Shown here one piece after another: positions 1 through 18,591 of a stretch of 39,507 nucleotides of DNA (positions are counted from its first letter, which is position 1; each line of letters begins with the position of its first letter). The notes below the pieces were generated by a model that was not told where the DNA came from, ran no database searches, and saw only the letters and a program-made list of their open reading frames with translations. Both the position numbers and the translations under genes were made by a program. The DNA comes from Kineosporia sp. R_H_3 (lineage in GTDB: Bacteria > Actinomycetota > Actinomycetes > Actinomycetales > Kineosporiaceae): assembly GCF_002198675.1 (NCBI RefSeq), contig NZ_MWLL01000017.1, positions 1 through 39,507 on the forward strand, written 5' to 3'.

Positions 1-18
1 CCCCCGAGGCCCCCGAGG
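1..18. repeat. tandem 9-mer at window edge
   Basis: CCCCCGAGG occurs twice back to back (1-9 and 10-18). The window begins here, so further copies to the left cannot be excluded. No function is apparent. Confidence 0.6.
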
Positions 19-103
19 CCCTGACCACAACGCCCCCTTACGCCCATGGACCCGAACGGTGCGCGTGCCGCGGCCCTCCCGCCCGACCGATGGAGACATC
101 CCG

Positions 104-2593: not shown

Positions 2594-3273
2594 TGGCGGC
2601 TCTTGACGCGGACGTCGTGATCGTGGGAGCCGGCCCGGGCGGCTGTGCCGCGGCGCTGGCCGCGCTGCGTGCACGCGGGGACGCACGGGTGCTCCTCCTG
2701 GACCGCGCACCCCGCGGGCCTTGACAAGGTCTGTGGAGACGCCGTCGGGCCGCGGGCCCGGCAGACGCTGGAGGCGCTCGGCGCGGAGACGGTGTTGCGC
2801 CACGAGGAGCAGGTCAGCCGGTTCCGGCTGGTGTCCCCGTCGGGCCGGTCAGTGTCCGGTGCGGTGTCGACGCCGGGCTTTGTCGTGCCGCGGCGAGTTC
2901 TGGACGCCCGGTTGCTGGACGCCGCGGTCGCTGCAGGTGCGCAGTTCCACCGGGCCACGGTGGCAGCGGTGTCGACAGGCGCTACGGACGTCGTGGTGAC
3001 CCTACGCGGCGGCGGGACGGTCCGTGCAGCCGTCGTGGTCGGGGCCGACGGCGCGAACTCCGTGGTCCGGCGCAGCATCGGAGAACCGCCGAACCGGGAC
3101 ACCCACCTGGCTCTGGCCGTGCGGGGGTACATGGACCGGCCGCCGGACTTTCGCGAGCTGCTGATCCGGTGGCACCCGGTCGCGCGTGGCGTCGCCTATG
3201 CGTGGGCGTTCCCGACCGCGGACGGTCACGTGAACGTCGGATACGGGGCGCCCGTGAGTGAACCGCCCCGGGA
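2593..3273 (+). pseudogene. geranylgeranyl-reductase-like FAD oxidoreductase, frameshifted and truncated
   Basis: An ATG at 2593 overlaps the ATPase stop codon and opens a typical flavin N-terminus (VVIVGAGPGGCAAAL, dinucleotide-binding GxGxxG), but the frame hits TGA near 2722-2724. The protein continues in another frame with GLDKVCGDAVGPRA, the KxCGD motif of the geranylgeranyl reductase family, then VVVGADGANSVVRR and a plausible substrate domain. The two frames meet at about 2705-2722, indicating a one-base gain or two-base loss. The second frame runs into the IS3 element at 3274, and nothing after the element looks like the missing C-terminus. The family reduces isoprenoid double bonds using FAD, but this copy should be inactive. 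Two independent lesions argue against a sequencing error as the only cause. Confidence 0.8.
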
Positions 3274-3314
3274 TGTCCGGAGACCGTGGCCTGCCCCGGG
3301 TCTGACGGAGTCGA
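3274..3314 (+). repeat. IS3 terminal inverted repeat, transposase 3' side
   Basis: Starts TGTCCGGAGA, then an 8-base spacer, TGCCCCGGG, 5 variable bases and CGGAGTCGA. It matches the opposite end with a 3-base length difference in the first spacer. Confidence 0.85.
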
Positions 3315-3327
3315 ACGGGCTGGACTC

Positions 3328-4470
3328 TCACGCCACCGGTGGTTGGTTCTCGAACTGTATCGGCGACAGGTAGCCCAGGGCGGAGTGGCGACGTTGCCGG
3401 TTGTAGAAGATCTCGAGGTACTCGAAGATCGCGTTCGCGAGCTCGATCCGGGTGCGCCAGCGTCGCCGGTTGAGGAGCTCGACCTGCATTCGGGACCAGA
3501 ACGACTCCATCATCCCGTTGTCGTAGCAGTCCCCGATCGAGCCCATCGACGGGACCAGTCTCGAGGCCTTCGCGCGCTCGGTGAAGGCCCAGGAACCGAA
3601 CTGGACGCCCTGGTCGATGTGGATCACGGTGCCGTTGATGTCGCGGCGGTTGTCGATGGCCATTCCGAGCGCGTTCGTGACCAGGGCCGCGGTCGGTGAG
3701 GCGTCGATGGACCAGCCGACGACCCGACGCGAGTACGTGTCCAGGACCACGGCGCAGTACGCCTTGCCCTCACGGGTCGGGTGCTCGGTGATGTCGGTGA
3801 CCCACAACGCGTTCGCCCGGCTACGGGCGAAGTCCCGGTTGACCAGGTCGGAGGCGTAGGTGTCCGGCTTGGCGTGCTTCCACTTTCGGCGCCCGGGAAG
3901 TCCTGCCAGGCCGGCGCGGGTCATGAGCAGCTCGACCTGGCCGTGCCCGACGGTGATGCCGTGCCCGAGGACGAGCTCGGCGTGGACACGCCGGGCGCCG
4001 TAGACGCCACGTGAGGCGGTGTGTATGGCGCGGATCTGCTCGGTCAGGTTCGTGTGCCGCACCGCCCGCGCTGAGGGCCGCCGGTTCCGCCACTCGTAGT
4101 AGCCCGACTCTGCGACTCCGAGCAGGCGGCAGGACCGCTGCACCGAGTGCCCGTCAGCGGCCATCCGTCGGACGGCCGCGTAGCGGACTTTTGGGGGCAC
4201 CACTCCCTTCAACAGCTCCAGGGCTCGTTGCGCGGCGGCCAGCTCGGCCTGCAACCGGGCGATGCTGCGCTGGGCCGCCGCGAGCTCGGTCTTCTCGCTC
4301 GTCGTCGCGCCGGCCTGCAGGCCGCGGTCAATGCGGTCCTGCCGGCGCCAGCTGTAGATGGTCTGCTCGCTGATCTCCAGGTCGCGCGCGATGTCAGCGA
4401 CCTTGCGTCCGGACTCGAGCAGATCCAAGACCTTGCGACGGAACTCAGCCGGGTAGCCCCTCGGGGCCAT
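3328..4470 (-). CDS. IS3-family transposase, OrfA-OrfB in one frame
   Basis: A 380-residue transposase. Residues about 1-95 are an OrfA-type HTH (YPAEFRRKVLDLL...SEQTIYSWRRQ) followed by a leucine-zipper-like segment. Residues about 110-380 are OrfB with an HTH_21 region and an rve/integrase core. The catalytic DDE triad is visible as WVTDIT, IHIDQGVQFGS and MMESFWSRMQ, and the C-terminus has the usual YNRQRRHSALGYLSP. Most IS3 members need a programmed -1 frameshift to join OrfA and OrfB; here both lie in one open frame. The ATG at 4470 has AGGAGG about 5 bases upstream. All catalytic motifs are intact, so the enzyme may be active. Confidence 0.95.
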   Translation of the reverse strand: MAPRGYPAEFRRKVLDLLESGRKVADIARDLEISEQTIYSWRRQDRIDRGLQAGATTSEKTELAAAQRSIARLQAELAAAQRALELLKGVVPPKVRYAAVRRMAADGHSVQRSCRLLGVAESGYYEWRNRRPSARAVRHTNLTEQIRAIHTASRGVYGARRVHAELVLGHGITVGHGQVELLMTRAGLAGLPGRRKWKHAKPDTYASDLVNRDFARSRANALWVTDITEHPTREGKAYCAVVLDTYSRRVVGWSIDASPTAALVTNALGMAIDNRRDINGTVIHIDQGVQFGSWAFTERAKASRLVPSMGSIGDCYDNGMMESFWSRMQVELLNRRRWRTRIELANAIFEYLEIFYNRQRRHSALGYLSPIQFENQPPVA

Positions 4471-4511
4471 CGATGCCTCCTGTGCTCAGACGGCACAAGA
4501 ATCCAACATCA

Positions 4512-4549
4512 TCGACTCCGTAGTCCCCGGGGCAGACCATCTCCGGACA
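4512..4549 (-). repeat. IS3 terminal inverted repeat, transposase 5' side
   Basis: The reverse complement starts TGTCCGGAGA, then 5 bases, TGCCCCGGG, 5 variable bases and CGGAGTCGA, pairing with 3274-3314. It lies upstream of the transposase start and probably carries its promoter. Confidence 0.85.
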
Positions 4550-4696
4550 CGCCGGGGCGATTCAACCTCGTGGTGGCGCGCCGGCCTGTCATGGAGTGGG
4601 ATCGGGGATCGTGACGCGGTCACCGCTCGCGTGACTAGTGTCGGTTGTGGCTCCGTCCGGGGCTTGTCCGGGTGCGTTGTCCGGGCATGTCCCGAG

Positions 4697-5212
4697 TCAG
4701 GGTGCCCGTTGACTCAGTGCGCGAATCGTGGTCGACAGCCTGTCTGCCAAGCTGTCCCGCGAGATCCATGCCCCGGCGCCGAGGTCGATGGCGCTGCGGT
4801 AGTAGTCGCTCGACGGTTCCGGCCCGACGACGACCACGCGATCTCTCGGGAAGCGGCGCAGCGCATCGCGGCAGCAGGCGGGGAAGTCTCCGGTGTCGAC
4901 GACGAGCAGATCGGGTCGGTAGCGCTCGAGGGCGTCGGCGAGCATCTCACCCTCGTGGGGTATCAGGGCCGTACACCCACAGTCCCGGGCAAGGATCTCG
5001 CAGACGAAGCGCTGCACGAGCGTGTGCCGTATCGCTACCAGCGCGGTGCTGCTTCCTCCGGGGTCGGCCTCGCTAGATCCGTGAGGGTCCCCGAGGATCG
5101 CCTCAACGCCCGGCGACGCGTCTGTGTCCGGGGCCGTGACACTGTGGGGCACAGGGTCGCTGTGGAGGGTAGAAGGCGCTGGCTGCGCTGCAGCGTTGTC
5201 GAGATGCACCAT
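4697..5212 (-). CDS. stand-alone pseudo-receiver (REC-like) protein
   Basis: 171 residues. The ATG at 5212 has AAGGAGGG seven bases upstream. Residues 1-55 are low-complexity; residues about 56-168 follow a CheY-like receiver pattern (ALVAIRHTLVQRFVCEILAR ... PDLLVVDTGDF ... RVVVVGPEPSS ... DLGAGAWISRDS). An Asp sits at the phospho-acceptor position (D106), but the acidic pair expected after strand 1 is absent (AIRH) and the conserved Lys near the end is Arg. It may therefore work as a non-phosphorylated partner. No HTH output domain is present. It lies 160 bp downstream of the NarL-type regulator on the same strand and may be co-transcribed. Fold assignment is inferred from pattern only. Confidence 0.65.
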   Translation of the reverse strand: MVHLDNAAAQPAPSTLHSDPVPHSVTAPDTDASPGVEAILGDPHGSSEADPGGSSTALVAIRHTLVQRFVCEILARDCGCTALIPHEGEMLADALERYRPDLLVVDTGDFPACCRDALRRFPRDRVVVVGPEPSSDYYRSAIDLGAGAWISRDSLADRLSTTIRALSQRAP

Positions 5213-5372
5213 GTCACCGCCCTCCTTGTAGAAGTGTCAGTGCTGACCTGTGCTGCGGACATCCGCACCGCCTACGCAGTGGGTAGGTGGGTTCCCCGCG
5301 GACCGTCTATCGCGCGCCGGCCGGCGTCGTGGGCCTCCGCGGCTCCAGGAGCCGGAGTCAACGACTGGGAGG

Positions 5373-6023
5373 TCACGTCTCCTCGAGGAGCCCGAAGTCG
5401 CGGGCGACCGCGACCAGGTCGGCGCGGGTGTGCCGCTGGAGCTTCTGGGTCAGGTGCATCCGGTGCGTTTCGACGGTCCGTACGGACAGGAACAGCTCGC
5501 CGGCGATCTCTGCGTTCGTGTGCCCCGTCGCGATCAGGCGCAGGACGGCCTCTTCGCGTTCGGTCAGCTCGCCACCGGGGCCGTTGACTCGTCGACCGGG
5601 CTCGGGCGCGGTGAGCAGCGCGGCTCCGAGGGACGGGTGGACGTAGGCGCCGCCTCCCGAGACGGTCCGTACTGCCGCGACCAGTTCGACGTCCGCGGCG
5701 TCTTTGAGCAGGTAGCCGGTGGCGCCGGCTGCGAACGCTTGCCGCACGTACCCGATGTCTTCCTGCATGGTCAGGACCAGGACGCGGGTGGCCGGGCTCT
5801 GGTCGCGTACCAGACGCGTGGCGTCGATCCCGTTGGTTCCGTGCAGCCCGATGTCCATGACGACCACATCGGGGCGGTGGGTGGCCACTGCGGCTGTCGC
5901 GTCCTCGGCGGTGGCGGCCTCGCCGACCACGGTGATGTCTGGCTCGGCTTCGAGGATCAGCCGTAGGCCCGTCCGGACAACGCGATGGTCGTCGCACAGG
6001 ACAACTGTGATCATGGTGGTCAT
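5373..6023 (-). CDS. NarL/LuxR-type response regulator
   Basis: 216 residues, DNA-binding partner of the kinase just upstream. Receiver domain 1-120: acidic pair D11-D12 after strand 1, phospho-acceptor D57 in VVVMDIGLHG, LTM switch region and conserved Lys in YLLKDA. LuxR-type HTH about 153-205 (LTEREEAVLRLIATGHTNAEIAGELFLSVRTVETH). The pattern is that of the NarL/DevR group, which is phosphorylated by GAF-type HisKA_3 kinases. The kinase stop codon is 22 bases before this start. An in-frame ATG at 6014 is an alternative; neither start has a strong Shine-Dalgarno sequence. Confidence 0.93.
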   Translation of the reverse strand: MTTMITVVLCDDHRVVRTGLRLILEAEPDITVVGEAATAEDATAAVATHRPDVVVMDIGLHGTNGIDATRLVRDQSPATRVLVLTMQEDIGYVRQAFAAGATGYLLKDAADVELVAAVRTVSGGGAYVHPSLGAALLTAPEPGRRVNGPGGELTEREEAVLRLIATGHTNAEIAGELFLSVRTVETHRMHLTQKLQRHTRADLVAVARDFGLLEET

Positions 6024-6045
6024 CGCGGAGTCTCGCTCGTCTCGC

Positions 6046-7380
6046 TCATGTCTGCGGTCCCTCCAGGGGTACGCGCAGCGCGACCGTCGTGCCGTGGCCC
6101 ACTCGTGACGTTACCCGCACGGCGCCCCCGATGAGGGCGGCACGTTCGGCCATACCCCGTAGGCCCAGGGAGGTGGCGTGCTTCGAGACGTCGAAGCCTC
6201 GGCCGTCGTCGATCACGTCGGCGCTGAGGCGGTCCTGGGTCGCGGTGATCCGCACGACGACATGCTGCGCTCCGGCGTGCCGGACGACGTTGGTGAGGGA
6301 CTCCTGCACGACCCTGTAGGTGACCGTCTCCACGGGAGCCGGTAGCCGTGGAGACCCATCCGAGGGATCATGTTGGGTCGCCCCGGGGTGGCCCTGCGCT
6401 TGTCGTGTGCTCTGGCGATAGTCCTGCTGCAAATCGATGTCGATGTTGTCTCGAGCGGTCAGGTCCGTTACGAGACGTTCGAGAGCCGCGGCCAGACCCA
6501 GGTCGTCAAGGACGGTCGGGCGCAGCCCGGAGGCCAACTGGCGGACCTCGGTGAGGGCCTGGGCTATCAGGCTGCGCACGTCCGCGATCCGACGGTCGAC
6601 CTGTTCCATGTCCAAGGGGTCGGTGCGCAGACCCGTCTCGACCAGGTGCAGCCCGAGCAGGACGCCGGTCAGGGACTGACCGACCTCGTCGTGCAGGTCT
6701 CGGGCGACCCTTGCGCGCTCCTCCTCCTGGGCGGTGATGACGTCCGCCAGGGTCTGGCTGCGAAGCCGTGTGCGCTCCTGCGCAGCCGCAGCCTGCGCGA
6801 GGGCCTCGCCGCGTTCGCGTTCGGCGGTCACCAGGTGTGCGCCGTCGATCGCGCACGCCGCGAAAGCGGCCAGCGTCGTCAGGGACCACTCGTCGGAGAG
6901 GTCGAACGAGGGCCCCTCGTCCTGGGCGACGTACAGGTTGCCGTGGCGCCGGCCGCCGCTGCGGATCGGGACGCCGAGGAAGGAGGTGAGCCGCGGATGG
7001 CCGGAGGGCAGACCGACGTAGCTGGGATGCTGCTCGACGTCGGATGTCCGGACCGGGCCGTCGGCGAGCGCGGTCACCGAGAGCAGCCCCCAGCCGCGTG
7101 GTAGTCGCCCGATCCGGGACACCACCGCGGGACTCATTCCGCGGTGCAGGAAACGAACTGCGGTGCCTGCGGAGTCGTACTGCGCCAGCGCAGCGTACCG
7201 GGCGCCCGTGACGGCCAGAGCGGAGTCGAGGATGCGTTCCAGGATGCCTGCTTCATCCGTCTCCCGGGCCACTGCGAGCGCCGCCTCGAGAAGCACGGCG
7301 TGTCGCCGAGGGTCAGGGAGGTCGGACGTTGTCGTTCCTTCCGGTGGGTGGTCTTCGCGTCGAGGTCCCGGCATCACCAC
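6046..7380 (-). CDS. GAF-domain HisKA_3 sensor histidine kinase
   Basis: 444 residues, soluble. GAF domain about 34-185, a helix about 186-222, the HisKA_3 dimerisation box RVARDLHDEVGQSL with phosphorylated H230, then a HATPase_c domain with N-box (VVQESLTNVVRHA) and G-boxes (DDGRGFD, LGLRGMAERA, GHGTTV). A hydrophilic insert of about 30 residues (LQQDYRQSTRQAQGH...) interrupts the ATPase domain before the N-box. The domain order resembles DevS/DosS-like kinases, which sense redox state or gas, but no haem ligand can be assigned by eye. Possible starts are GTG 7380, GTG 7377 and ATG 7374. A BlaI-like dyad (7381-7397) directly abuts the start, so the transcript may be nearly leaderless. Confidence 0.93.
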   Translation of the reverse strand: MVMPGPRREDHPPEGTTTSDLPDPRRHAVLLEAALAVARETDEAGILERILDSALAVTGARYAALAQYDSAGTAVRFLHRGMSPAVVSRIGRLPRGWGLLSVTALADGPVRTSDVEQHPSYVGLPSGHPRLTSFLGVPIRSGGRRHGNLYVAQDEGPSFDLSDEWSLTTLAAFAACAIDGAHLVTAERERGEALAQAAAAQERTRLRSQTLADVITAQEEERARVARDLHDEVGQSLTGVLLGLHLVETGLRTDPLDMEQVDRRIADVRSLIAQALTEVRQLASGLRPTVLDDLGLAAALERLVTDLTARDNIDIDLQQDYRQSTRQAQGHPGATQHDPSDGSPRLPAPVETVTYRVVQESLTNVVRHAGAQHVVVRITATQDRLSADVIDDGRGFDVSKHATSLGLRGMAERAALIGGAVRVTSRVGHGTTVALRVPLEGPQT

Positions 7381-7397
7381 GACTACCGAGGATAGTA
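7381..7397 (-). promoter_or_regulatory. BlaI-like operator 1 (kinase promoter)
   Basis: ACTA-N7-TAGT dyad (7382-7396) with the same 4-7-4 architecture as the sites at 9581 and 11428. On the minus strand TACTAT within it could be the -10 box, placing transcription start at or very near the kinase start codon; a bound repressor would then block the promoter. This site is the least symmetrical of the three at its outer bases. Confidence 0.5.
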
Positions 7398-7484
7398 CTC
7401 GAGCTGACGGTTATCCCACGCGAACCGCTGCAGGCGTTGACGCGACGGTCGCCCCGCGAAGGGCCGGCCGACGACTCGTGGCGA

Positions 7485-8360
7485 TCAGGTGCGCGAGACG
7501 CGGGTGTACACCACAGTTGCAGTCCAGATGGCACGCTTGCTGACGAATCCGCCAGTCTTGGGAGCGTCGTACATCATGCCGTTCCCGGCGTAGATACCGT
7601 TGTGGTAGACGCGGCCACCGGAGACGAACGAGACCAGGTCGCCGGGACGTGCCTGCGATCTGGGCACCTGGGTGGTGGCTCGCATCTGCTGGTCTGCCGT
7701 TCTGGGGAGGCTGACCCCGACCGCCGCGTACACGTATCTCACGTATCCCGAGCAGTCGAACCCTGCGGGAGTGGTGCCGCCGTAGAGGTAGGGAACGCCC
7801 ACGTACCTGGCCGCTACGGCCAGCACCTCGGACGCGTCCGCTGCCTGGTCGGGGGTGGTTGCACGGGGGGCGCCGGTCCCGGTCCTGGGCGCGGTCGTGC
7901 CCCCACTGGTCGGGGAAGCCCGCCGGTTGCCGCGGGAGGCCTTCGCTGGTGTCGCGTTGCGTGCGGGCCGCGCCGATGCTGCGGCAGGACGGGGACGGGT
8001 GACAGCACTGATCGTGGTGTCCGGTGCGAACCGGACGGTCACCGGGGGCGCGGTGAGGGGCTGTCCCGTCAGGGCGCCCGGCGCGAGCCGGGTGGCAGTA
8101 CCCGACGCGAGGCCGCGTGCGGCGGTGACGCCCGGGTCGATTGGCGCGACGGATGCTGTCGCGGCGGGAGAGCGGTCGCCGCCGGCGTAGGCCGCCAAGA
8201 CCGGGATGCTGCCTGTGAGGGCGAGCCCGGAGGACATGGCGATCGCGACGCTTCCGCGGCTCAGGGTGGGTGCGCGGTCCGTGACGGCCGCGCGGGCGAT
8301 CGTGAGCGGTGTGCTGGCGCAGCGTTCGGCTCTATGCCGCGCGGGGCGTGCCTCAGTCAT
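7485..8360 (-). CDS. NlpC/P60 cell-wall hydrolase
   Basis: 291 residues, a peptidoglycan peptide hydrolase expected outside the membrane. An uncleaved or signal-type hydrophobic stretch lies at about 38-58, followed by a long Ala/Pro/Thr-rich linker (about 60-175). The C-terminal NlpC/P60 domain has nucleophile C203 (FDCSGYVRYVY), H253 (YHNGIYAG) and D265 (MMYDAPKTG) in the third position, where the family often has His, Asn or Glu. The ATG at 8360 has AGAGGG six bases upstream. Expression is probably controlled by the ydaO riboswitch directly in front, a common arrangement for actinobacterial wall hydrolases. Confidence 0.9.
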   Translation of the reverse strand: MTEARPARHRAERCASTPLTIARAAVTDRAPTLSRGSVAIAMSSGLALTGSIPVLAAYAGGDRSPAATASVAPIDPGVTAARGLASGTATRLAPGALTGQPLTAPPVTVRFAPDTTISAVTRPRPAAASARPARNATPAKASRGNRRASPTSGGTTAPRTGTGAPRATTPDQAADASEVLAVAARYVGVPYLYGGTTPAGFDCSGYVRYVYAAVGVSLPRTADQQMRATTQVPRSQARPGDLVSFVSGGRVYHNGIYAGNGMMYDAPKTGGFVSKRAIWTATVVYTRVSRT

Positions 8361-8370
8361 GTGTGCCCTC

Positions 8371-8490
8371 TGACACCTGCGGGGTTAGCTGTCGGGTTCG
8401 GGCAGAGGAAGCGCCCGGCCGCGTCTGCGGCTTCACCCCAAAGGAGCCAGATGTCGCACCGGCCCCGCGATTGGGTTCCCCGTCCCTGCC
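8371..8490 (-). ncRNA. cyclic di-AMP (ydaO/yuaA) riboswitch
   Basis: Read on the minus strand, the leader carries the hallmark blocks of the ydaO class in order: GGGACGGGGAACCCAATCG, then TTTGGGGTGAAGCC, then CCCGAACCCGACAGCTAACC followed by CGCAGGTGTC. The last block ends about 10 bases before the start codon of the NlpC/P60 gene, so ligand binding could affect ribosome access as well as termination. In this class c-di-AMP binding normally turns expression off. Outer boundaries are approximate. Confidence 0.85.
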
Positions 8491-8746
8491 ATGGACTCGA
8501 AGACGTACCACGGATGGCAGGGCTCGGCGTCCGCGGTGGCCGTTCTCGAAGAGACGGCGCCCGCACCATACTCACGGGTCCGCGATGCTGCGCAACCGGC
8601 CAGGACGACACCGGGCCACCATTTACCGAATCTTCATGGAGCACCCGGCATCCCGAGATGTGCTCGCGGGTGCACAGTCGAGGGGTTGTGACGGATCAGG
8701 GCAGCGACAGCGAGGCGAAGGTGCGTGGGATCAAGGTGGTGGCGGC
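8491..8746. other. intergenic region with possible riboswitch promoter
   Basis: About 256 bases between the riboswitch and the ccdA stop codon. On the minus strand TTGCGC (8590-8595) and TATGGT (8565-8570) could form a promoter, but the spacing is a long 19 bases. No gene seen. Confidence 0.3.
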
Positions 8747-9532
8747 TCAGAGCACCGTGGACCAGGCCGCGGCCCAACCTTGGGCGATGACCACGACATC
8801 GGTCCACAGCCCGGTGACCTCCGCCGCCCCCAGCAGGACAAGTCCCGCGCCCCCCACGCGAAGCAACGCCTGGGCGTGCACGCGGGGCCAGGAGAACGCA
8901 CGCGCGGCCCGTTCGGTGAAGACGGCCGTGACCACGAACGGCAACCCGAGTCCCAGGCTGTAGGCGAAGGCCAGCGCGGCGCCCCGGCCGGCTCCGGCCG
9001 CGGAAGTGGCGAGCGCCAGGACAGAGGCCAGCGTGGGGCCGATGCACGGCGTCCATCCCAGCCCGAACAGGACCCCGAGGACCGGTGCGCCGACGAGTCC
9101 CGTCCGTGGGCGATAGGAGACGCGCAGCGAGCGGGAGGCCCAGGGCAGTCTCGCCAGCACGCCGGCGAATGACAGTCCCAGCACGATGGTCAGCACGCCC
9201 AGGGTCACCGTCAGGGCCCGCTGGTGAAGGACCAGGGCTCTCCCGGCGGCCCCGAAAGCGGCACCGTACGCGGTGAACACACCCCCGAACCCTGCGACGA
9301 ACAATGCGGCGCCGGCGGCCGTCCGCGCAGGTGTCGGGCGTGGGGGCCGACCCGCCACGGCCGTGGAGAGGAGGTCACCACCCACGGTTCCTGACACGTA
9401 GGCGAGGTATCCCGGTACCAGGGGGAGGCAGCACGGAGAGGCGAAAGAGACCAAACCGGCCGTCGCTGCGACAAGGACAGCCAGCACAAGCGGGCCGTGG
9501 GTGACGATCTGCCCCGTGGCGGTGGCGTCCAC
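8747..9532 (-). CDS. ccdA: CcdA/DsbD-type transmembrane thiol-electron carrier
   Basis: 261 residues with about six membrane helices. CcdA proteins pass electrons from cytoplasmic thioredoxin to extracytoplasmic thiols. The two family cysteine motifs are present: [20 protein letters not shown] near the N-terminus and [12 protein letters not shown] mid-protein. Start is GTG at 9532, preceded by GGAGGGGG and GGAAGG. It is divergent from the blaI-like gene, and a BlaI-like dyad lies between them. No ResA or cytochrome c maturation gene is in the window, so its target is unknown; likely clients are Cys-rich exported or membrane proteins of this island. Confidence 0.92.
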
Positions 9533-9580
9533 CCTTCCAACCCCCTCCGTAGAAATGTCACTCGACGGGTATGAGAGGAC

Positions 9581-9597
9581 TACTAGAGAGCATAGTA
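9581..9597 (+). promoter_or_regulatory. BlaI-like operator 2 (ccdA / blaI intergenic)
   Basis: TACTA-N7-TAGTA, extended to CTACTA...TAGTAG at 9580-9598: perfect arms around a 7-base spacer. It sits between the divergent ccdA and blaI-like genes, where an autoregulating BlaI dimer would bind. Confidence 0.7.
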
Positions 9598-9717
9598 GGA
9601 GACGGTCAGCGACAGATCCCGGTCATCACGAGCAGCGGCAGGTAGCGCCCGACAAGGTTCCTCGGTCTGCCAGGCGTGGCGGCAGGGCTCGCTGCGCCGT
9701 CGGCAGGGCGGCTTACG

Positions 9718-10260
9718 ATGAGGCCGACAAGTGGAGGACGGTTGCGACGACTAGGTGACCTGGAAGCGGCGGTGATGGACCGGCTGTGGGGCCAAGACCG
9801 TGCCGTCAGCGTCAGAGAGGTTCTCGAGGACCTGAATAAGGACCGCGCACTGGCCTACACGACGGTCATGACGGTTCTGGACAACCTCCATCGCAAAGGC
9901 CTGGTCACGAGGACGCAGTCGGGCCGCGCCTACTTCTACCTACCGGTCAAGAGCCGCGCGGAACATGCGGCCGATCTGATCGCGGGGGTCCTCGAACAGG
10001 CTGCCGACCGCACCGTGCCGCTGCTGCATTTCGTCCAGAGCCTGACACCGCAGGAGATGCACCGTCTGCGGACGGCGCTGGACGCGTCCAGGGTCGCAGA
10101 TCGGCAGATGCCGGACGGCGTTGGCATCGGCACCGAGGCCGGCACCGAGACCGGCACCGAGGCTGCGCCGCCGCAGGCCGGCCGCCGGTCTCGCCGCCCC
10201 GCAGCCAGCACGGACGCTGCATCCGCGCCACGGACACGGACACGGGGTCGGGGCCGGTGA
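9718..10260 (+). CDS. BlaI/MecI/CopY-family transcriptional repressor
   Basis: 180 residues. The winged-helix pattern RRLGDLEAAVMDRLWGQDRAVSVREVLEDLN...YTTVMTVLDNLHRKGLV is typical of BlaI, which represses as a dimer and is inactivated when a partner M56 membrane peptidase is triggered. The dimerisation region follows to about residue 115, then a disordered tail with a GTEAGTETGTEA repeat and many Arg. The ATG at 9718 is chosen; a TTG at 9742 with GGAGGA only 3 bases away is a second possibility. Its stop overlaps the M56 gene start (GTGA), so the pair is translationally coupled. Confidence 0.93.
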   Translation: MRPTSGGRLRRLGDLEAAVMDRLWGQDRAVSVREVLEDLNKDRALAYTTVMTVLDNLHRKGLVTRTQSGRAYFYLPVKSRAEHAADLIAGVLEQAADRTVPLLHFVQSLTPQEMHRLRTALDASRVADRQMPDGVGIGTEAGTETGTEAAPPQAGRRSRRPAASTDAASAPRTRTRGRGR

Positions 10261-11210
10261 GAACGGCGGTTGCTCTCTTCGGGTACGCCGCGGTGGTGGG
10301 CTCGCTCGGGGTCCGATGGCTGAGCGGAGTCCGCTGGAGACTACGGGCACCCCGCTTGGCGCTGTGCATGTGGGCGTTCGTGCTGCTGAGCTCGCTGACC
10401 TCGCTCGTGCTGGCCGGGCTGCTCACGGCCGCGCCGGACTCTGGCTTCACCGTGAGTCTGGCTGACCTCATGCATGCCTGTGCGGCGGCGGTGGAGCAGG
10501 CCTACCGGGCGCCGGGTGACGCGCTGCTGCATACCGGTGGGGCGGTCCTGGCGTTCGGAACCATCGCCTGGGTCCCAGTCCAGTTCGCGGTGTACTGGTG
10601 GTCCTTGCACCGGCACCGCGCACGGCATACCCGCCACCTGCGCCTGATCGCGCGCCCTGGCCCGTTGCCGGGGGTCGTCGTTCTGGACCACCACGTTCCC
10701 GCGGCGTACTGCCTCGGCGGAAGGCGCGGCGTCGTCGTGCTGACGTCCGCCGCCCTCGTCGTCCTCGACGCGGCCGAGCTGGAGGCCGTACTGGCTCACG
10801 AAGCCGCCCACCGCGCCGGACGCCATCACCTGGTGCTGACCGTGACCCGAGCGCTGTCCCGGTGCCTCGCACTGCTCCCGACGGCTCGACGGGCCGTCTC
10901 GGCCGTCCACGAGCTCTTGGAGATGGTGGCCGATGACGCCGCGGTTGCCGCGGCCGGATCTGGCGCTACCCGGTCGGCCCTGCTGAAGATCGCCGTTCCG
11001 GGTTTCGATGGGCGCCAGGTCATGCTTGCTGCCGGGGACACCGCAGTCCTCCTGCGCCTGCGCCGACTGCAGGACCGTCCACGGCCGCTGCAGCGAATCT
11101 CGTCGGTCGCGATGCTGGCCGCGGGCCTGGCGGTGGCCACCCTCCCGCTCCTGGTGGCCGCGGCGCCGGCATTGACCGCAGTCCGATGGGACTACTGCCC
11201 GCTCTCATGA
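10257..11210 (+). CDS. M56-family (BlaR1/MecR1-like) membrane zinc peptidase
   Basis: 317 residues, starting at GTG overlapping the blaI stop. Hydrophobic segments lie at about 3-20, 34-60, 88-115 and 277-305. The zinc motif HEAAH is at 181-185 and a downstream acidic ligand region HELLEMVADDAA follows. The basic cytoplasmic loop and C-terminal membrane segment fit the M56 fold. Unlike BlaR1 there is no extracellular penicillin-binding sensor domain, so the trigger is probably a membrane or redox signal rather than beta-lactam. By family analogy it relieves repression by the adjacent BlaI-type protein, either by cleaving it or through an intermediate step. Confidence 0.9.
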   Translation: MRTAVALFGYAAVVGSLGVRWLSGVRWRLRAPRLALCMWAFVLLSSLTSLVLAGLLTAAPDSGFTVSLADLMHACAAAVEQAYRAPGDALLHTGGAVLAFGTIAWVPVQFAVYWWSLHRHRARHTRHLRLIARPGPLPGVVVLDHHVPAAYCLGGRRGVVVLTSAALVVLDAAELEAVLAHEAAHRAGRHHLVLTVTRALSRCLALLPTARRAVSAVHELLEMVADDAAVAAAGSGATRSALLKIAVPGFDGRQVMLAAGDTAVLLRLRRLQDRPRPLQRISSVAMLAAGLAVATLPLLVAAAPALTAVRWDYCPLS

Positions 11211-11516
11211 GGGGGGCCATTCTGGCCGCGGCTCCCCCGCGGTCGTTGCCGCGCCAAGCCGGTCGAGCCGGATCGAGCGGGACCGCGACGTCGACGGCAC
11301 CGGCGAGCCTGCCGGAACAGGCTTCGGGACCGATATCGACTGCCGCTGCTGACCAGGGCTCGTGACGCCCTCGCCGGACAGCGTCGACCCATGCACTCGC
11401 GAGGCGGACATCGTCGAAGCCAACCACTACTATGCGAAGTAGTAGTTATTGGCCGCGATGTCGAGCGGCGCACGGCTCGCCGTCGTCGCCGCCGCCACCA
11501 GGATGGTGATGGACGC
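11211..11516. other. intergenic region holding BlaI-like operator 3
   Basis: 306 bases between the M56 gene and the Lgt-like gene. The only clear element is the dyad at 11428-11444. An open frame covering part of it has no convincing start or family pattern. Confidence 0.5.
11428..11444 (+). promoter_or_regulatory. BlaI-like operator 3 (Lgt-like gene promoter)
   Basis: TACTA-N7-TAGTA with spacer TGCGAAG, extended by further ACT/AGT symmetry on both sides (11426-11446). It lies about 70 bases before the proposed ATG of the Lgt-like gene. Its architecture is identical to operator 2. Confidence 0.65.
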
Positions 11517-13070
11517 ATGAAGAAGGCGGGTCGGAAGCAGGGCCGCAACCCAGGCCCGGTACCGGGCACAGCCGCGGCCACGGGACGAACCCCGACCGGG
11601 AGCCACGGCCTTCCCGCGGGCGACAGACCCGCCGCCGACGTGGACGCGGCCGCATCGGCGATACCGAGCGCGTTCCTCCGTGCTGCGCATCCTCCGAGAC
11701 TGCACGCCGACCGAACCCGCGGACTCAGTGACGCCGCGGTGGTCGACGACAGAGTCGGGGCGGTCCTGGCTGGAACGGGCCTTCCGCCCGAGGGGACCCG
11801 CCGGTCGCCCGGCGCTCGTTCCGACGGTGGAAGATCGCCTGGGCGGTCGGCCTCCAACTCGCCGGCGCAGCCGGGCGTTCCGGTCTGCGATCCCGCCGCC
11901 TTCCAGGGATGGGTGTGGCCGCATCTGCTGCGGAGACGGCCCGTGACCTCGGTGGAGATGGCACGTTCCCTGTGGCGAGTCCTCGATGCCGTCGAACCGC
12001 AGGCCATCTCGTTGACGTACTGGTTCCGCACCTCGGCGACGGTGAGCCCGACCGACACCGCGCCCGCGCCGGTCGAGGTGCGGGTCGCGGGCCGACGGCG
12101 CCCGGACGACACGCAGCCCGAGGAGTACGCGGACGTGAGGCGCGAGCGCTGCAGGGACGCCGTCGACGAGGTGTACCGCTTGGACGTCGGTCTACCACCG
12201 GGCGGAGTCGTTGCGTGGACGATCAGAGTCCAGGACCTGACCCCCGGCGTCTGGGACCTCACCGCGAGCCCCGTCCTGCCCGTCGGTGCGACCACCACTC
12301 GCGTGGTGCCGCGTCATGACGCGAGCGTCGCCCTGTCGGGGCGGACCGTCTTCACCCCCCTGGCGAAGAACGTCGCGCCAGGCGTGCGTGTCGGTGCTTG
12401 GCCGGCCCTTGTCGCGACCGGCGCCGCGGCGGGACTGGGGTTGCAGTACACGCTCGCCCGCCAGGCGGGGCTGCCGGCCGGACTCGTCACCGCGCTGTCG
12501 CTGCTCGCCTGTCTGGTCGGGGTGGTGGGCGCGAAGTCGTACTACCTGATGACGCATCCACGTGATCGCTACCGCGAACTGACAACCGGGATGTCGGTGC
12601 AGGGGTTCGTGCTCGGCGTACTGATCACGTTGGGTGCAGCCGTGCCGGCGTGGGGCCTCTCGCTCGGTGCCGTGCTCGATGTGAGCATCCCCGGCCTTCT
12701 CGCCGGACTTGCCGTGGGACGACTCGGCTGCCTTCTCGGTGGCTGCTGCGTAGGACGTCCCACTGCCTCGCGGTGGGGCCTGTGGTCCTCTGACCGGGCC
12801 CTGGGTGTGCGGCGGATCCCTGTGCAGCTGCTCGAGTCGTCCAGCGCGGCGATCCTTGCCGTCGCCACGCTCCTGATCGTTCTCGAGACCGGTACACGGA
12901 CGGGAGCGATGTTCGTCGCCGGCCTGTCCACGTACATCCTGGTTAGGCAACTCCTTTTTCCCTTGCGGGCCATCGAGCGAGCCACTCGTCACGGTCGCCG
13001 GATCACGCTCTGGGCCTCGGCAGGAGTCAGCGTTGTCGCCACCACCCTGCTGGCGCTCGGAGTCGCGTGA
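11517..13070 (+). CDS. Lgt-like (prolipoprotein diacylglyceryl transferase family) membrane protein with N-terminal extension
   Basis: Up to 517 residues; the start is uncertain. The first 140 residues from ATG 11517 are low-complexity, and GTG 11942 or ATG 11957 are alternatives. Residues about 150-280 form a soluble beta-rich segment (ISLTYWFRTSATVS...GGVVAWTIRVQDLTPGVWDL) not seen in standard Lgt. The C-terminal 240 residues hold about seven membrane helices with Lgt-type landmarks: GMSVQGFVLG, then DVSIPGLLAGLAVGRLGCLLGGCCVGRP (about 390-416), and RRIPVQLLES near the end. Standard Lgt has a GRxGNxxNxE-type motif; here Asn/Glu positions are replaced by a Cys-rich LGCLLGGCC. It may lipidate a special substrate or serve a redox role. 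It sits between a BlaI-like operator and the cytochrome b cluster. Confidence 0.72.
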   Translation: MKKAGRKQGRNPGPVPGTAAATGRTPTGSHGLPAGDRPAADVDAAASAIPSAFLRAAHPPRLHADRTRGLSDAAVVDDRVGAVLAGTGLPPEGTRRSPGARSDGGRSPGRSASNSPAQPGVPVCDPAAFQGWVWPHLLRRRPVTSVEMARSLWRVLDAVEPQAISLTYWFRTSATVSPTDTAPAPVEVRVAGRRRPDDTQPEEYADVRRERCRDAVDEVYRLDVGLPPGGVVAWTIRVQDLTPGVWDLTASPVLPVGATTTRVVPRHDASVALSGRTVFTPLAKNVAPGVRVGAWPALVATGAAAGLGLQYTLARQAGLPAGLVTALSLLACLVGVVGAKSYYLMTHPRDRYRELTTGMSVQGFVLGVLITLGAAVPAWGLSLGAVLDVSIPGLLAGLAVGRLGCLLGGCCVGRPTASRWGLWSSDRALGVRRIPVQLLESSSAAILAVATLLIVLETGTRTGAMFVAGLSTYILVRQLLFPLRAIERATRHGRRITLWASAGVSVVATTLLALGVA

Positions 13071-13481
13071 CCCGGCAGGCCCCGGTCCGCGCGGGCTGCG
13101 CCTGACTACCAGGTGGCGCGTATGACGCCGGGGTCCTGGCTGTGGCGGCGGCGCTCGGCCCAGTAGGACATCGTGCTCTCCGGCTCCGGCCGGCGGTGGC
13201 CCACGCCGACCATCATCGGCTCCGCTTGCCCGGACCGCGGTTGTCCGATCTCAGTCACGGGCTTCTTCGCGAGGCCATGCGTACATGTCCGCATCGACAC
13301 GCGGACATCGCCCGGATCCGGGAGCGCCGGAGGTCGCCGCACAGTGACTGTGGCGTCCCGTCGTCCGGGGCGCAGCGTCCGCTGGCAGCAGCGCACCTGT
13401 CCTCGTCCTGCGCGGTTCGGATGGCTCGAACCAGGTGACCAGGTGGGGCGCGGCGGCTCGCGGCCCGGTTAAGGAGCGGTG
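13071..13481. other. intergenic region with inverted repeat
   Basis: 411 bases. ATGTCCGC (13285-13292) and GCGGACAT (13301-13308) form a perfect 8-bp inverted repeat around 8 bases. A short antisense frame (13106-13258, GTG start, ending ...GVIRATW) exists, but it matches no family I recognise and lacks a clear ribosome site. The promoter of the following cluster should lie here. Confidence 0.35.
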
Positions 13482-14111
13482 ATGACGAATTCACTTGTAC
13501 GACTCCGTCAACATAGCAGCACGCCTGGTTCAGCCCGTGGCGCGACCGCGCGCTGGTGCCACCGGGTCGCCGTCGCGGTCCTAGCCGCTGTCCTCGTTGG
13601 GGTCCCCGTCGGCTCGGCGTGGGCCGACGAGGAGGGGGAGTCCGACCAGGCGCGGGTCCTGGTCCAGCAGGCCCTCGCGCTCCTGGTGAACGGGAACACC
13701 GTGGAGTCGGTGCGCGAGAAGCTGGACGACGCCGTTGGCGCGCCGATCCAGGAGGGCGTTGACATGGCGGTCGTGGAACGTGTGAGGCCGTCGCTCGACC
13801 AGCCCTCCGCGGTGTCGGGGGAGAGTGACCGGGAACGCATCGCGTCCCAGCTCCAGCCAGCTCTCCTGCCCGCGGTGACAGTGACGATGGCCACCGGAGC
13901 GGACACGGGCACCACGGTGGTCCTGCCCGAGCTCAAGCCGGCTCGAGGAGTGACCGACCCCGGTGACGCAGGTCTGCTGGGCAGCGCAGCGCTGGCGATC
14001 GGCGTCGGCGTCACGCTGGCCTACCGGTGGCGTCCGGCCGTGACCGTCGCGTCGCTGCGCCGCGCCGAACGCGAGGAAGCCGTCACACCCGAGGAAGGGG
14101 TACGGCCATGA
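13482..14111 (+). CDS. exported single-anchor protein of unknown function
   Basis: 209 residues. The ATG at 13482 has AAGGAG five bases upstream, a better spacing than the GTG at 13479. A signal peptide is clear (basic n-region to about 27, hydrophobic core about 28-44, AWA cleavage near 47). The mature part is acidic and helical (QARVLVQQALALLVNGNTVESVREKLDDAVGAP), then a Thr/Val-rich stretch, a C-terminal membrane helix (about 165-183) and a basic/acidic cytoplasmic tail. I do not recognise the family. It is the first gene of a chain in which stops and starts overlap, and its stop overlaps the cytochrome b start (ATGA), so it probably works with it. Confidence 0.8.
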   Translation: MTNSLVRLRQHSSTPGSARGATARWCHRVAVAVLAAVLVGVPVGSAWADEEGESDQARVLVQQALALLVNGNTVESVREKLDDAVGAPIQEGVDMAVVERVRPSLDQPSAVSGESDRERIASQLQPALLPAVTVTMATGADTGTTVVLPELKPARGVTDPGDAGLLGSAALAIGVGVTLAYRWRPAVTVASLRRAEREEAVTPEEGVRP

Positions 14112-15280
14112 CTGACAGCCCTACGCGCAGGCCCCCCCGAACCGGTGGGGACGACGCTCCCGGTTCGGTCATCCCGGATCCCGGCGTCAGAGCGAACGGT
14201 GGACAGGAACCACCGCCGCGTCGAACGATCGGCGACGGGCCCGGGACGGCGCGACCCCCGGCGTGGCGTCGGGTCGTCGCGGTGGTGGACGAACGCATGG
14301 GTATCGACGCCTTGCGCTACGAGGTGCCCGAACATGCGAACAACGTCCCCTGGAGCCTGGGCGGCCTCACCGCCGTGTCGTTCGTGACGCTGCTGGTCAG
14401 CGGGATCTATCTGGCGCAGTTTTACGATCCGATGCCTGAGACAGCCAATCAGTCCATCCGTTCGATCATGACCGACGTGTGGCTCGGTAGCTTCGTGCGC
14501 GGTATCCACTACTGGGCAGCGCAGGCGATGTTCGTCCTCGCACTGCTGCACATGTTGCGGATCTTCTTCCACGGCTCCTTCAAGAAGCCTCGCGAGGGCA
14601 ACTGGGTCGTCGGGTCAGCAATGCTCCTGTTGACCTTCCTCGCCGTCTTCACCGGTTCGGTGATCAAGTGGGACCAGGAGGGCTACGAGGCCCTGATGCA
14701 CAACCTGGACGTCGCGGAGCTGCTGGGTGGCGCCGGGCTATGGTTCACCCCGCAGCTCACGACCCGGGTATCTCTGCTGTTCCGGCTCTACACCGCCCAC
14801 GCCGTGATCATCCCGGGCCTGATCCTTGCGCTCGTCGTGATCCATGCGCTGCTGGTCAAGCGCCACAAGATCTCGTCGCATCCTTCGGTCCCGGCATCCG
14901 CAGTCGAGCCCACCGAGCCGTTCACGGCCCATCTGCGGCGTGTCGCCGCCTGCGGTCTCGTCGTCGTCGGGACGCTGTCCGTCCTGGCAGTACTGATCCC
15001 ACCGGTGGTCGGCCCGACGCCTGTCGAGGGTGTCGAGACGACGCGGCCGCTGTGGTTGTTCTGGTGGTTCTTCCCGCTCGAGCAGTGGTTCGGAGTGCCG
15101 TCCGTCGGCCTCGCCATCGCCGGCGTGTTCCTGCTGGTCTTCGCGGTGCCGTTCCTCGATCGCAGTGCGAAACGGCGCCTGCGTGAACGCCTGTGGTCCC
15201 TGGGGGTGGCAGCCGTAGTCCTGGTCACTCTGCTGGCCGTGACCGTGAACGTGTGGATCAACAACCCGCGGGGTCATTGA
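14108..15280 (+). CDS. orphan diheme cytochrome b (b6-like)
   Basis: 390 residues. After a disordered 60-residue N-terminus come MDERMGIDALRYEVPEHANNVPWSLGG, then membrane helices A-D with the four haem-axial histidines: H134 and H148 in helix B (13 residues between) and H231 and H246 in helix D (14 between). The extra residue in helix D is the b6-type spacing rather than the mitochondrial bc1 type. A subunit-IV-like C-terminal part follows, with several helices and an atypical PPVVGPTP loop. No Rieske protein or cytochrome c is next to it, unlike qcrCAB, so it may move electrons between quinone and another membrane partner of this cluster. The start overlaps the preceding stop (ATGA). Confidence 0.92.
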   Translation: MTDSPTRRPPRTGGDDAPGSVIPDPGVRANGGQEPPPRRTIGDGPGTARPPAWRRVVAVVDERMGIDALRYEVPEHANNVPWSLGGLTAVSFVTLLVSGIYLAQFYDPMPETANQSIRSIMTDVWLGSFVRGIHYWAAQAMFVLALLHMLRIFFHGSFKKPREGNWVVGSAMLLLTFLAVFTGSVIKWDQEGYEALMHNLDVAELLGGAGLWFTPQLTTRVSLLFRLYTAHAVIIPGLILALVVIHALLVKRHKISSHPSVPASAVEPTEPFTAHLRRVAACGLVVVGTLSVLAVLIPPVVGPTPVEGVETTRPLWLFWWFFPLEQWFGVPSVGLAIAGVFLLVFAVPFLDRSAKRRLRERLWSLGVAAVVLVTLLAVTVNVWINNPRGH

Positions 15281-15281
15281 C

Positions 15282-15758
15282 ATGACGCGTCGGGTGACGC
15301 CTTCAGCCGTAGCCGACGACTCGACGGTCATCACCGAGGCAGTGCAGGCCGCGGCACGCCGCGCCGGAGTGTGGTTCTGGTGCCTCGCCGTGGTGGGCTT
15401 GCTGGACATGGGCTGGCTCTATGCATCCTTGACCTCCACGCCGTCCGCCCTTGTCGGGCTATCGGTGGCCGCTTCCGGGCTATCGCTGGTGCCCGTGGTC
15501 GTGCAGGCGGCGCGGCTCCGGGCCGCCGTGAGCACCTTCGTGCACATGTCGTCCGCGGCTGCGCGACCAGGTAGAAGGATCATCCCCCGCATGAAGGACT
15601 GGTATGCGGCTTCAGCGAACCTTCACGGCGCGCGACGGCCACTCTCCACACCGCGGATCGATGATGGACATGCAGCCGAGCGCAAGGAGTCGTGCCCGTC
15701 ACGCGCCCCGCTCGGGAGACACCACCAAACAGGCCTCAAAGGCCGGAGACGAACATGA
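15282..15758 (+). CDS. small membrane protein of unknown function
   Basis: 158 residues, starting one base after the cytochrome b stop. Two hydrophobic helices (about 29-48 and 56-78) are followed by a basic, probably cytoplasmic tail of about 70 residues with low complexity. No family recognised. Its stop overlaps the next start (ATGA), supporting co-translation. Association with cytochrome b is inferred from position only. Confidence 0.7.
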   Translation: MTRRVTPSAVADDSTVITEAVQAAARRAGVWFWCLAVVGLLDMGWLYASLTSTPSALVGLSVAASGLSLVPVVVQAARLRAAVSTFVHMSSAAARPGRRIIPRMKDWYAASANLHGARRPLSTPRIDDGHAAERKESCPSRAPLGRHHQTGLKGRRRT

Positions 15759-15994
15759 ACAGACCGCGCATCAACATCTCGACCGGCGAGCGAGCCGGGC
15801 GGGTCCTCCTCGGCGCAGCCGGTGTGGCTGCGGGAGCGGCACTGCTGACCCAGTCACCCGGTGCGGTGGCTGCGGTGCTGGAGGTGCTCCTGGCCCTCGC
15901 AGGTCTCGACCTTGTGGTCACAGGCCTGATGGGCCACTGCCCGCTCTATCGGCTGCTCGGCCACGTCCCCGCCTCCTTGAGGAGGGCGGCGTGA
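15755..15994 (+). CDS. DUF2892 (YgaP-type membrane domain) protein
   Basis: 79 residues, two membrane helices. The ATG at 15755 has GGAGAC about 4 bases before it. The opening (NISTGERAGRVLLG) and the ending GHCPLYRLLGHVP are typical of DUF2892, the domain fused to rhodanese in YgaP. The conserved single Cys in GHCPLY suggests a thiol-related role, which fits CcdA and cytochrome b nearby. Both ends overlap neighbouring genes by four bases (ATGA and GTGA). Confidence 0.85.
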   Translation: MNRPRINISTGERAGRVLLGAAGVAAGAALLTQSPGAVAAVLEVLLALAGLDLVVTGLMGHCPLYRLLGHVPASLRRAA

Positions 15995-16371
15995 CTCCGA
16001 TCGGGGACAACGAGGGCGCCCGGCGCGAGGGGGAGACCCGCCCGCCCGTCGGACCTTTCGGCCCGATGGAAGACCCATCGGACGCCGCGGCGAGGTGGGA
16101 ACCCAGACCACCGCAGGATCGCCCGCCGGGTCACCGAGGGCACGCGGGCCATCGGTGGATGATGCTCGCCTGCTGCGTCCCCATGCTGGTGATCGCGGTG
16201 ACGCTGGTGGTGACCGGGGTCGCGAACGCGGGTGCGATCGTCATCGCGTTGGTCTGCACGGCGATGATGGCGTTCATGATGATGGGTATGGGCCACGGGG
16301 ACGGCCGAGACGCGCCGGACAACGCACACGGCCTCGATGGTCACGAGGAGCATGACCGCCGAGGTCGCTGA
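15991..16371 (+). CDS. small membrane protein with Met/His-rich tail (DUF2933-like)
   Basis: 126 residues from GTG 15991, which overlaps the previous stop and has GAGGAGGG upstream. A disordered Pro/Gly-rich N-terminus is followed by HRGHAGHRWMMLACCVPMLVIAVTLVVTGV and a second helix ending AMMAFMMMGMGHGDG, then a His/Asp-rich tail. The HRWMMLACCVPML pattern resembles DUF2933, a short family often found near metal transporters. The Met, His and Cys residues could bind soft metals; this is inferred. Confidence 0.75.
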   Translation: MTPIGDNEGARREGETRPPVGPFGPMEDPSDAAARWEPRPPQDRPPGHRGHAGHRWMMLACCVPMLVIAVTLVVTGVANAGAIVIALVCTAMMAFMMMGMGHGDGRDAPDNAHGLDGHEEHDRRGR

Positions 16372-16446
16372 GAACGCCGTGATCTTCAGAGATTCTTCAT
16401 GCCGTGGCGGCAGGAAAACGCATGCGGTGTTCGGCAGGCTGGTGCC

Positions 16447-18431: not shown

Positions 18432-18498
18432 TCCGCAAACCCCGTGGATCGGGATGCCGCTAACCGTCTCCGACGGGTCACTCCGTATCTCTGTCGGA

Positions 18499-18515
18499 AT
18501 ACCCGGCGGGGGTAT
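18499..18515 (+). promoter_or_regulatory. CsoR-like operator before the second ATPase
   Basis: ATACCC-GGCGG-GGGTAT: a dyad with a GC core and ATACC/GGTAT arms, the known layout of copper-type CsoR operators. It lies 77 bases before the GTG start of the ATPase. No csoR gene is in the window, so the regulator would be encoded elsewhere. Confidence 0.6.
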
Positions 18516-18591
18516 CATCCTTGTAGTGCTCACGCCGAAGCCCCGCGGCGTCGAGAACAGCCCGAGCGGGGACCTCGAAGAGGAGGACACC

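Follow-up and report, generated by a model that had tools for sequence, protein, structure and literature searches.

BlaI and BlaR1 are chiefly familiar as switches of antibiotic resistance. Their staphylococcal operators are built on TACA/TGTA (PMC7253601), and BlaR1 has both termini outside, where loop EL1 (residues 56 to 96, between helices 2 and 3) is also extracellular (PMC9834060). CopY, another repressor of the family, senses metal via its own C-terminal Cys-X-Cys and binds RNYKACANNTGTMRNY (PMC7253601). In the plastocyanin/cytochrome c6 copper switch of Synechocystis, the protease PetP is activated by copper and cleaves the BlaI-type PetR (PMC7896320, PMC12292863, PMC13421787), and in Mycobacterium tuberculosis, BlaI (Rv1846c) has been described as controlling the atp operon (PMC5874750, PMC12565901). 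We analyzed a BlaI-M56 pair encoded in a 39,507-nucleotide stretch of Kineosporia sp. R_H_3 (contig NZ_MWLL01000017.1; the window) together with the TACTA-N7-TAGTA dyads around it, the predicted operators of a regulon of cytochrome c maturation and thiol-exchange genes.

The window pair shares with the staphylococcal BlaI-BlaR1 and MecI-MecR1 systems the repressor family, an HExxH protease, and a BlaR1-like N-terminal fold, but its M56 protein has no C-terminal beta-lactam sensor and its dyad differs from TACA/TGTA. The repressor matches PF03965, the family that it has in common with CopY, and a dyad lies upstream of its own operon; it is free of cysteine, so that the C-terminal Cys-X-Cys of CopY is missing, and it scores 35.7 bits against TIGR02698, far under the cut-off of 121.95. 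Its nearest solved chain is 2g9w (E 1.2e-21), which we take to be M. tuberculosis BlaI. A dyad in the atp region of another genome (G124, locus L127) adds to that likeness, whereas the regulon proposed here consists of cytochrome c maturation and thiol genes. PetR-PetP, with its BlaI-type factor, its M56/BlaR1-type protease without a beta-lactam role, and its electron-transport targets, is the nearest working counterpart of the mechanism proposed below, although PetR-PetP controls petE and petJ, whereas the genes found adjoining the sites here are different ones (ccdA, tlpA, an Lgt-like gene, and others).

The preliminary description of this DNA placed one dyad at three positions and noted that the window seemed to contain no complete copy besides these. 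All three lie where they were placed (Table 1) and share the shorter 4-7-4 core ACTA-N7-TAGT, but they are two exact copies (dyads 2 and 3) plus one with a single mismatch, in the outermost base (dyad 1); allowing one mismatch yields no further match in the window. Shuffled windows contain on average 0.00 exact copies and 0.01 copies with at most one mismatch. In the whole genome (G000; 7,260,683 bases), the two exact copies in the window are the only ones, and one mismatch admits 9 distinct places, 3 of them in the window and the others on contigs C90, C88 (upstream of a 116-amino-acid open reading frame [ORF]), C164 (within an ORF), C98 (two), and C106 (one). The shuffles and the genome-wide count led us to reject chance palindromes. 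Transcription of ccdA and of blaI-M56 diverges from dyad 2, which lies ∼48 bp upstream of the ccdA GTG (9532) and ends ∼120 bp upstream of the blaI ATG (9718). Dyad 3 ends ∼72 bp upstream of the ATG of the Lgt-like gene (11517), the codon at which homology to the sister genome also starts, and dyad 1 abuts the GTG of the kinase ORF at 7380. No TACKA-type dyad within two mismatches was found at 8300-8760, 13060-14300, or 15200-16500.

The sister genome (G012, contig C93; locus L046) retains the locus. Its dyad upstream of the Lgt-like gene (18105) is exact, with every arm base identical to dyad 3 and four of the seven spacer bases changed; the ccdA/blaI dyad (14561) is a TACGA variant, and the dyad before the kinase (12322) has one mismatch. 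An additional exact dyad (16276) stands upstream of resB (PF05140, 428 bits), which has no equivalent in the window; in the sister, this gene separates M56 from the Lgt-like gene. Another dyad (8382), with one mismatch, precedes a methyltransferase ORF. A fourth site in the Kineosporia genome itself, on contig C90 (position 35749), has one mismatch and the flanking C and G of the consensus. It lies ∼72 bp upstream of an ORF for a TlpA-like thioredoxin with a WCPPC motif (AhpC-TSA, 67.7 bits), which is followed by a cytochrome c assembly ORF (PF01578 Cytochrom_C_asm, 74.4 bits); the sister's 80% orthologue has TACTATCCCGGATAGGA ∼70 bp upstream. Four homologues, the paralogues at loci L164 to L167 (G000 contig C60, G012 contig C108, and two in G011), have no site within two mismatches in ∼3.6 kb each. 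For the single resB of G000, beside a ccdA-like gene on C60, the 12 kb fetched yielded no TACKA-type site even with one mismatch allowed. In G011, the third genome of the genus (100% complete), we found no BlaI at E 0.001, no such kinase at 1e-40, and no Lgt-like protein at 1e-10. This genome contains only three matches to TACKA-N7-TMGTA, all 17-mers found elsewhere in G000 and G012, so that the regulon sites are absent; because the whole locus is missing, the joint absence of sites and blaI counts as one event.

To follow the dyad beyond the genus, 196 genomes of the class were scanned for the strict form CTACTA-N7-TAGTAG, which occurs at 31 places in 22 genomes, 29 of them outside G000. BlaI was found at 1e-18 in 20 of the 22 site-bearing genomes versus 87 of the 174 others (Fisher, 1.8e-4), and at least 14 of the 29 sites lie within 5 kb of a BlaI match and at least 18 within 20 kb. 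Among 26 stretches chosen by the motif alone (L115 to L140), 13 encode a BlaI homologue. By our own reading, a clearly thiol, respiratory, or copper gene adjoins the site in eight: a P-type ATPase (L117), DsbA (L121 and L123), CydA (L126 and L138), atpB (L127), AhpC-TSA with blaI (L129), and ResB/AhpC-TSA (L132). Sala et al. (2009) reportedly defined the M. tuberculosis BlaI regulon. The L127 site, between a 164-amino-acid ORF and atpB, is what the published atp target would predict. DUF3105 genes adjoin strict dyads repeatedly (L122, L134, and L135). Over 79 distinct sites, the consensus is C-TACTA-N7-TAGTA-G, with the outer C at 77%, a figure raised in part by one site set having been selected for flanking C/G.

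We also started from BlaI. The preliminary description had named a motif not conserved beside orthologous operons as grounds for giving up its proposal; among 37 BlaI-anchored loci, the fetched DNA has an exact TACTA-N7-TAGTA in 17 and an exact TACKA-N7-TMGTA in 24, so the motif is conserved there. Dyads adjoin blaI-M56 pairs in many Actinomycetota and in two Armatimonadota, both metagenome-assembled genome loci (L090 and L092) with an exact dyad upstream of blaI and both of the M56 cysteines described below. Pfam families among the site neighbors include DsbD_TM, ResB, AhpC-TSA, DSBA, Cyt_bd_oxida_I, COX1, and ATP-synt_A. By locus, we found DsbA-like and VKOR-like genes in a Kineosporia (L069, by sequence reading, the DsbA-like name being backed by the Pfam match of a 49% homologue in L121), a DsbA-like gene with DsbD_TM in Tomitella (L080), DsbD_TM 760 bp from the site in Rhodococcus (L082), AhpC-TSA and Lnt in Cryobacterium (L057), CopC-CopD downstream of blaI-M56 in Kribbella (L066), and COX1 in Lentzea (L087); NlpC/P60 homologues occur at sites in L064, L085, and L087. 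In Luteipulveratus (L089), the dyad stands upstream of CydA, and no M56 was found after its blaI; likewise, no M56 gene adjoining blaI was found in the 13 Streptomyces loci.

Two groups of loci show other arrangements. In a Kineosporia-type genus (g6; L009 to L013 and L015), two or three overlapping TACKA-type dyads in 15-bp steps precede a different blaI. In six Streptomyces loci (L067, L071, L073, L081, L083, and L084), a TACGA-type dyad lies ∼100 bp upstream of a gene for ∼200 to 227 amino acids (a Peptidase_M23 in L067), 5 to 9 kb from the M56-less blaI.

The M56 protein of the window has 317 residues, the motif HEAAH at 181 to 185, and two cysteines, Cys75 and Cys314. An AlphaFold2 (AF2) model from 16 rows (mean predicted local distance difference test [pLDDT], 84.9) has helices at 2-24, 32-58, 86-131, and 280-313. 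As the preliminary description had recognized, a beta-lactam sensor is absent: the protein stops four residues beyond the last predicted helix. The Pfam family matched is Peptidase_M48, and the HExxH motif and BlaR1-like N-terminal fold of BlaR1/MecR1 proteases are both present. BlaR1 is the best solved structural match (8exq: Z 10.3; root mean square deviation, 5.1 over 215 residues; model 1-262 on chain 1-290), with BepA (Z 10.1) and ZMPSTE24 (9.5) close behind, and such Z scores can be common in helical proteins. Mapped onto BlaR1, Cys75 would fall at the EL1 position and Cys314, past the last helix, where the BlaR1 sensor would start. In a 16-row alignment (A5), whose members other than the sister are 22 to 38% identical to the window protein, Cys75 is kept in 14 rows (L069 has His and L068 Trp in its place) and the tail Cys in 15 (all but L068). 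Apart from the start Met, only seven columns are invariant, among them H181, E182, H185, and E222. No plasmid relative of this protein was matched in the plasmid collection.

Among 64 BlaI-M56 pairs, 32 have both cysteines, 5 only that of the tail, 1 only that of the loop, and 26 neither; four of the five tail-only proteins (L048, L121, L123, and L144) have a loop His and two tail cysteines. Proteins lacking both include the Kineosporia tandem-dyad group (L009 to L013 and L015) and a family-f8 group (L150, L151, and L153 to L155). Where the fetched locus contains an exact dyad, the tail Cys is present in 27 of 28 pairs, versus 10 of 36 where it does not, a soft contrast since locus lengths differ: the fetched loci span ∼3.3 to 20 kb, and the lack of an exact dyad partly reflects the length of the DNA. 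The pair search left out shorter or second copies (L001 to L003, L006 to L008, L037, L056, L093, L099, and L100) and merged pairs with the same M56 end; locus L027 has no bearing here. The counts omit L059 and L063, which are at contig ends, and L124, which is in the wrong frame, and the tree (59 rows) omits proteins of <280 amino acids.

We propose that a BlaI dimer would bind the C-TACTA-N7-TAGTA-G dyads as operators and repress the operon that it forms with M56 together with ccdA, the Lgt-like gene, and the C90 tlpA/cytochrome c assembly pair; repression of the GAF kinase/regulator pair is less certain. The M56 protease, once activated by a signal arising outside the membrane, would cleave BlaI and so derepress the set. 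In the clade of the window protein, Cys75, in the loop matching EL1, and Cys314, in the C-tail, would replace the beta-lactam sensor of BlaR1, acting either as a copper(I) site or as a thiol/disulfide switch. We lean toward copper because the loop Cys can be replaced by His when the tail has two cysteines and because copper-type ATPase and CopCD genes lie near several sites. Such a regulon would serve system II cytochrome c maturation and linked electron-transport chemistry. BlaI binding, proteolysis, the sidedness of the cysteines, and the signal are what we infer. Judging from the sequences, the dyads are very likely BlaI operators of this gene set; sensing by Cys75 and Cys314 is a tentative proposal, with the balance almost even; and the explanation as a whole seems to us reasonably probable. 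The earlier proposal that one BlaI controls the set thus gains support from the dyads conserved at blaI-M56 pairs, except at the kinase, the weakest member, whose mismatched site rests on a single sister genome. The "redox" label can be sharpened to cytochrome c maturation, thiol exchange, and respiration. The C90 pair as fourth member, the resB of the sister, phylum-wide conservation, and a candidate sensor are added here.

Several observations weigh against this explanation. In 20 of the 37 BlaI loci, among them all 13 from Streptomyces and five Catenulispora-type loci, the exact TACTA form is missing from the fetched DNA, and no BlaI was detected at 1e-18 in G050 and G120, although both carry a site. 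In 18 of the 26 motif-chosen stretches, nothing next to the site is clearly a thiol, respiratory, or copper gene; the neighbors there are, among others, UPF0014, a Gfo/Idh oxidoreductase, DUF222, DUF3105, an M23/Lnt pair, and a methyltransferase, and two stretches have no called gene nearby. Among the BlaI loci, too, some neighbors are off-theme, such as a methyltransferase (L068) and a phosphorylase (L088). The flanks of dyad 1 are also ∼90% identical in the sister, so its conservation says little. On the side of the protease, the structural alignment runs only to model residue 262, short of the last helix, and pLDDT is down to 53 in the final block of the model, which makes the placement of Cys314 on either side conjectural. 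The Cys pair tracks a clade in the tree (two changes for the tail Cys and six for the loop Cys), and its covariation is therefore not independent evidence. Four genomes with strict dyads (G114 at cydA, G124 at atpB, G134 at cydA, and G176) have as their only BlaI pair at 1e-15 one with a Cys-less M56 (L150, L153, L151, and L152, respectively); thus, the dyad does not require the Cys pair. Conversely, nine loci (L060 to L062, L143, L144, and L146 to L149) have the Cys pair or its His variant and no exact dyad in the fetched DNA. The dyad appears to be common to two M56 classes, with the Cys pair as a sensor candidate of the class found in the window.

The same operators and regulon could instead answer to a lipid, cell wall, or membrane-energy cue sensed within the membrane, in which case the cysteines would either have a structural role, as a permanent disulfide between EL1 and the tail, or be incidental to the clade. 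TACTA or TACGA dyads also accompany M56 partners that have neither Cys, NlpC/P60, M23, and Lnt genes stand at some sites, and the published mycobacterial BlaI regulon includes ATP synthase (PMC5874750). This alternative is unlikely, although it deserves attention; the two cysteines are kept across the clade, in alignment A5, where few other columns hold, and thiol and cytochrome genes recur at the sites. As for the binding protein, the gene of the LuxR-type response regulator lies near dyad 1, and NarL-type heptamers resemble TACTAT-type half sites. Recognition of the dyads by this regulator in place of BlaI is nevertheless very improbable: only 1 of the 26 motif-chosen stretches has a homologue of it, against the 13 with BlaI, and in many loci the sites stand upstream of blaI itself. 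The TACTAT half, present in 48 of the 79 sites, could double as a promoter −10 box. That the dyads are nothing but −10 boxes, or palindromes that arose by chance and bind no regulator, is hardly credible, since both arms and the 17-bp length are conserved while the spacer varies, shuffles give near zero, and G011 lacks sites and blaI together.

Table 1. Proposed operators and the genes around them in the window
Feature	Position	Strand	Remarks
LuxR-type response regulator, after kinase	5373-6023	−	Response_reg 92 bits, GerE 63.4 bits; possible regulon member
GAF histidine kinase	6046-7380	−	GAF, HisKA_3, HATPase_c; possible regulon member
Dyad 1, GACTACCGAGGATAGTA	7381-7397	no strand	One mismatch; abuts GAF kinase start; weakest member
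ccdA-like thiol-transfer membrane protein	8747-9532	−	PF02683 DsbD_TM, 47 bits
Dyad 2, TACTAGAGAGCATAGTA	9581-9597	no strand	In the divergent ccdA/blaI intergenic region; candidate BlaI operator
blaI, BlaI/MecI/CopY-family repressor	9718-10260	+	PF03965, 86.8 bits (cut-off 22.6); Cys-free translation
M56-type membrane metalloprotease, 317 aa (amino acids)	10257-11210	+	PF01435 Peptidase_M48, 42.8 bits; BlaR1 structural match
Dyad 3, TACTATGCGAAGTAGTA	11428-11444	no strand	Precedes Lgt-like gene; candidate BlaI operator
Lgt-like membrane protein, 517 aa	11517-13070	+	PF01790, 81.7 bits

GRxGNF is a motif of Lgt. At its position, the Lgt-like protein has GRLGCLLGGCCVG, and its long N-terminal region is without a Pfam match. 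It belongs to the wider fold family PF01790 but falls below all Lgt equivalog cut-offs (best NCBIfam score, 56.3 versus 334 bits; TIGR00544, 35.9 versus 118.9), and it is probably not a lipoprotein enzyme. On its 3' side follow a 210-amino-acid protein without an assigned family and then cytochrome b. The cytochrome b region and the NlpC/P60 gene (7485-8360) were rejected as regulon members, there being no TACKA-type dyad within two mismatches nearby. Elsewhere in the window, heavy-metal P-type ATPase genes (59-2593 and 18331-21174) and a NicO-type nickel transporter gene (21831-23033) have no adjacent dyad within one mismatch. A transposase-like ORF (3328-4470, by sequence reading) occupies the place of the phosphoketolase and methyltransferase genes of the sister; when window positions 1-9000 are compared with L046 by blastn, the matches are confined to 776-3260 and 4565-9000, and the FAD-type ORF at 2645-3373 is shorter than the sister's 385-amino-acid ORF.

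In the literature accessible to us, which included few subscription papers, we recognized no description of an Actinomycetota BlaI-M56 regulon for cytochrome c maturation or of such cysteines. It is possible, if slightly more conjectural than the sensor itself, that a widespread and as yet undescribed clade of BlaI-M56 switches in Actinomycetota and some Armatimonadota senses the envelope through the loop/C-tail Cys pair, by copper(I) or a disulfide, and via the TACTA-N7-TAGTA operator coregulates copper handling and terminal oxidases along with cytochrome c maturation and disulfide chemistry. Such a switch would be a proteolytic sensor of respiratory assembly on the fold of an antibiotic-resistance receptor. 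The two cysteines would offer a two-residue test of how an M56 protein without a sensor domain receives its signal. If the proposal is true, a large clade of actinobacterial BlaI-M56 pairs would report the copper or thiol state outside the membrane, in place of antibiotics, and set cytochrome and oxidase assembly, the ATP synthase control published for M. tuberculosis BlaI would fall within a wider respiratory regulon, and the cyanobacterial PetRP switch would have a parallel in other phyla.

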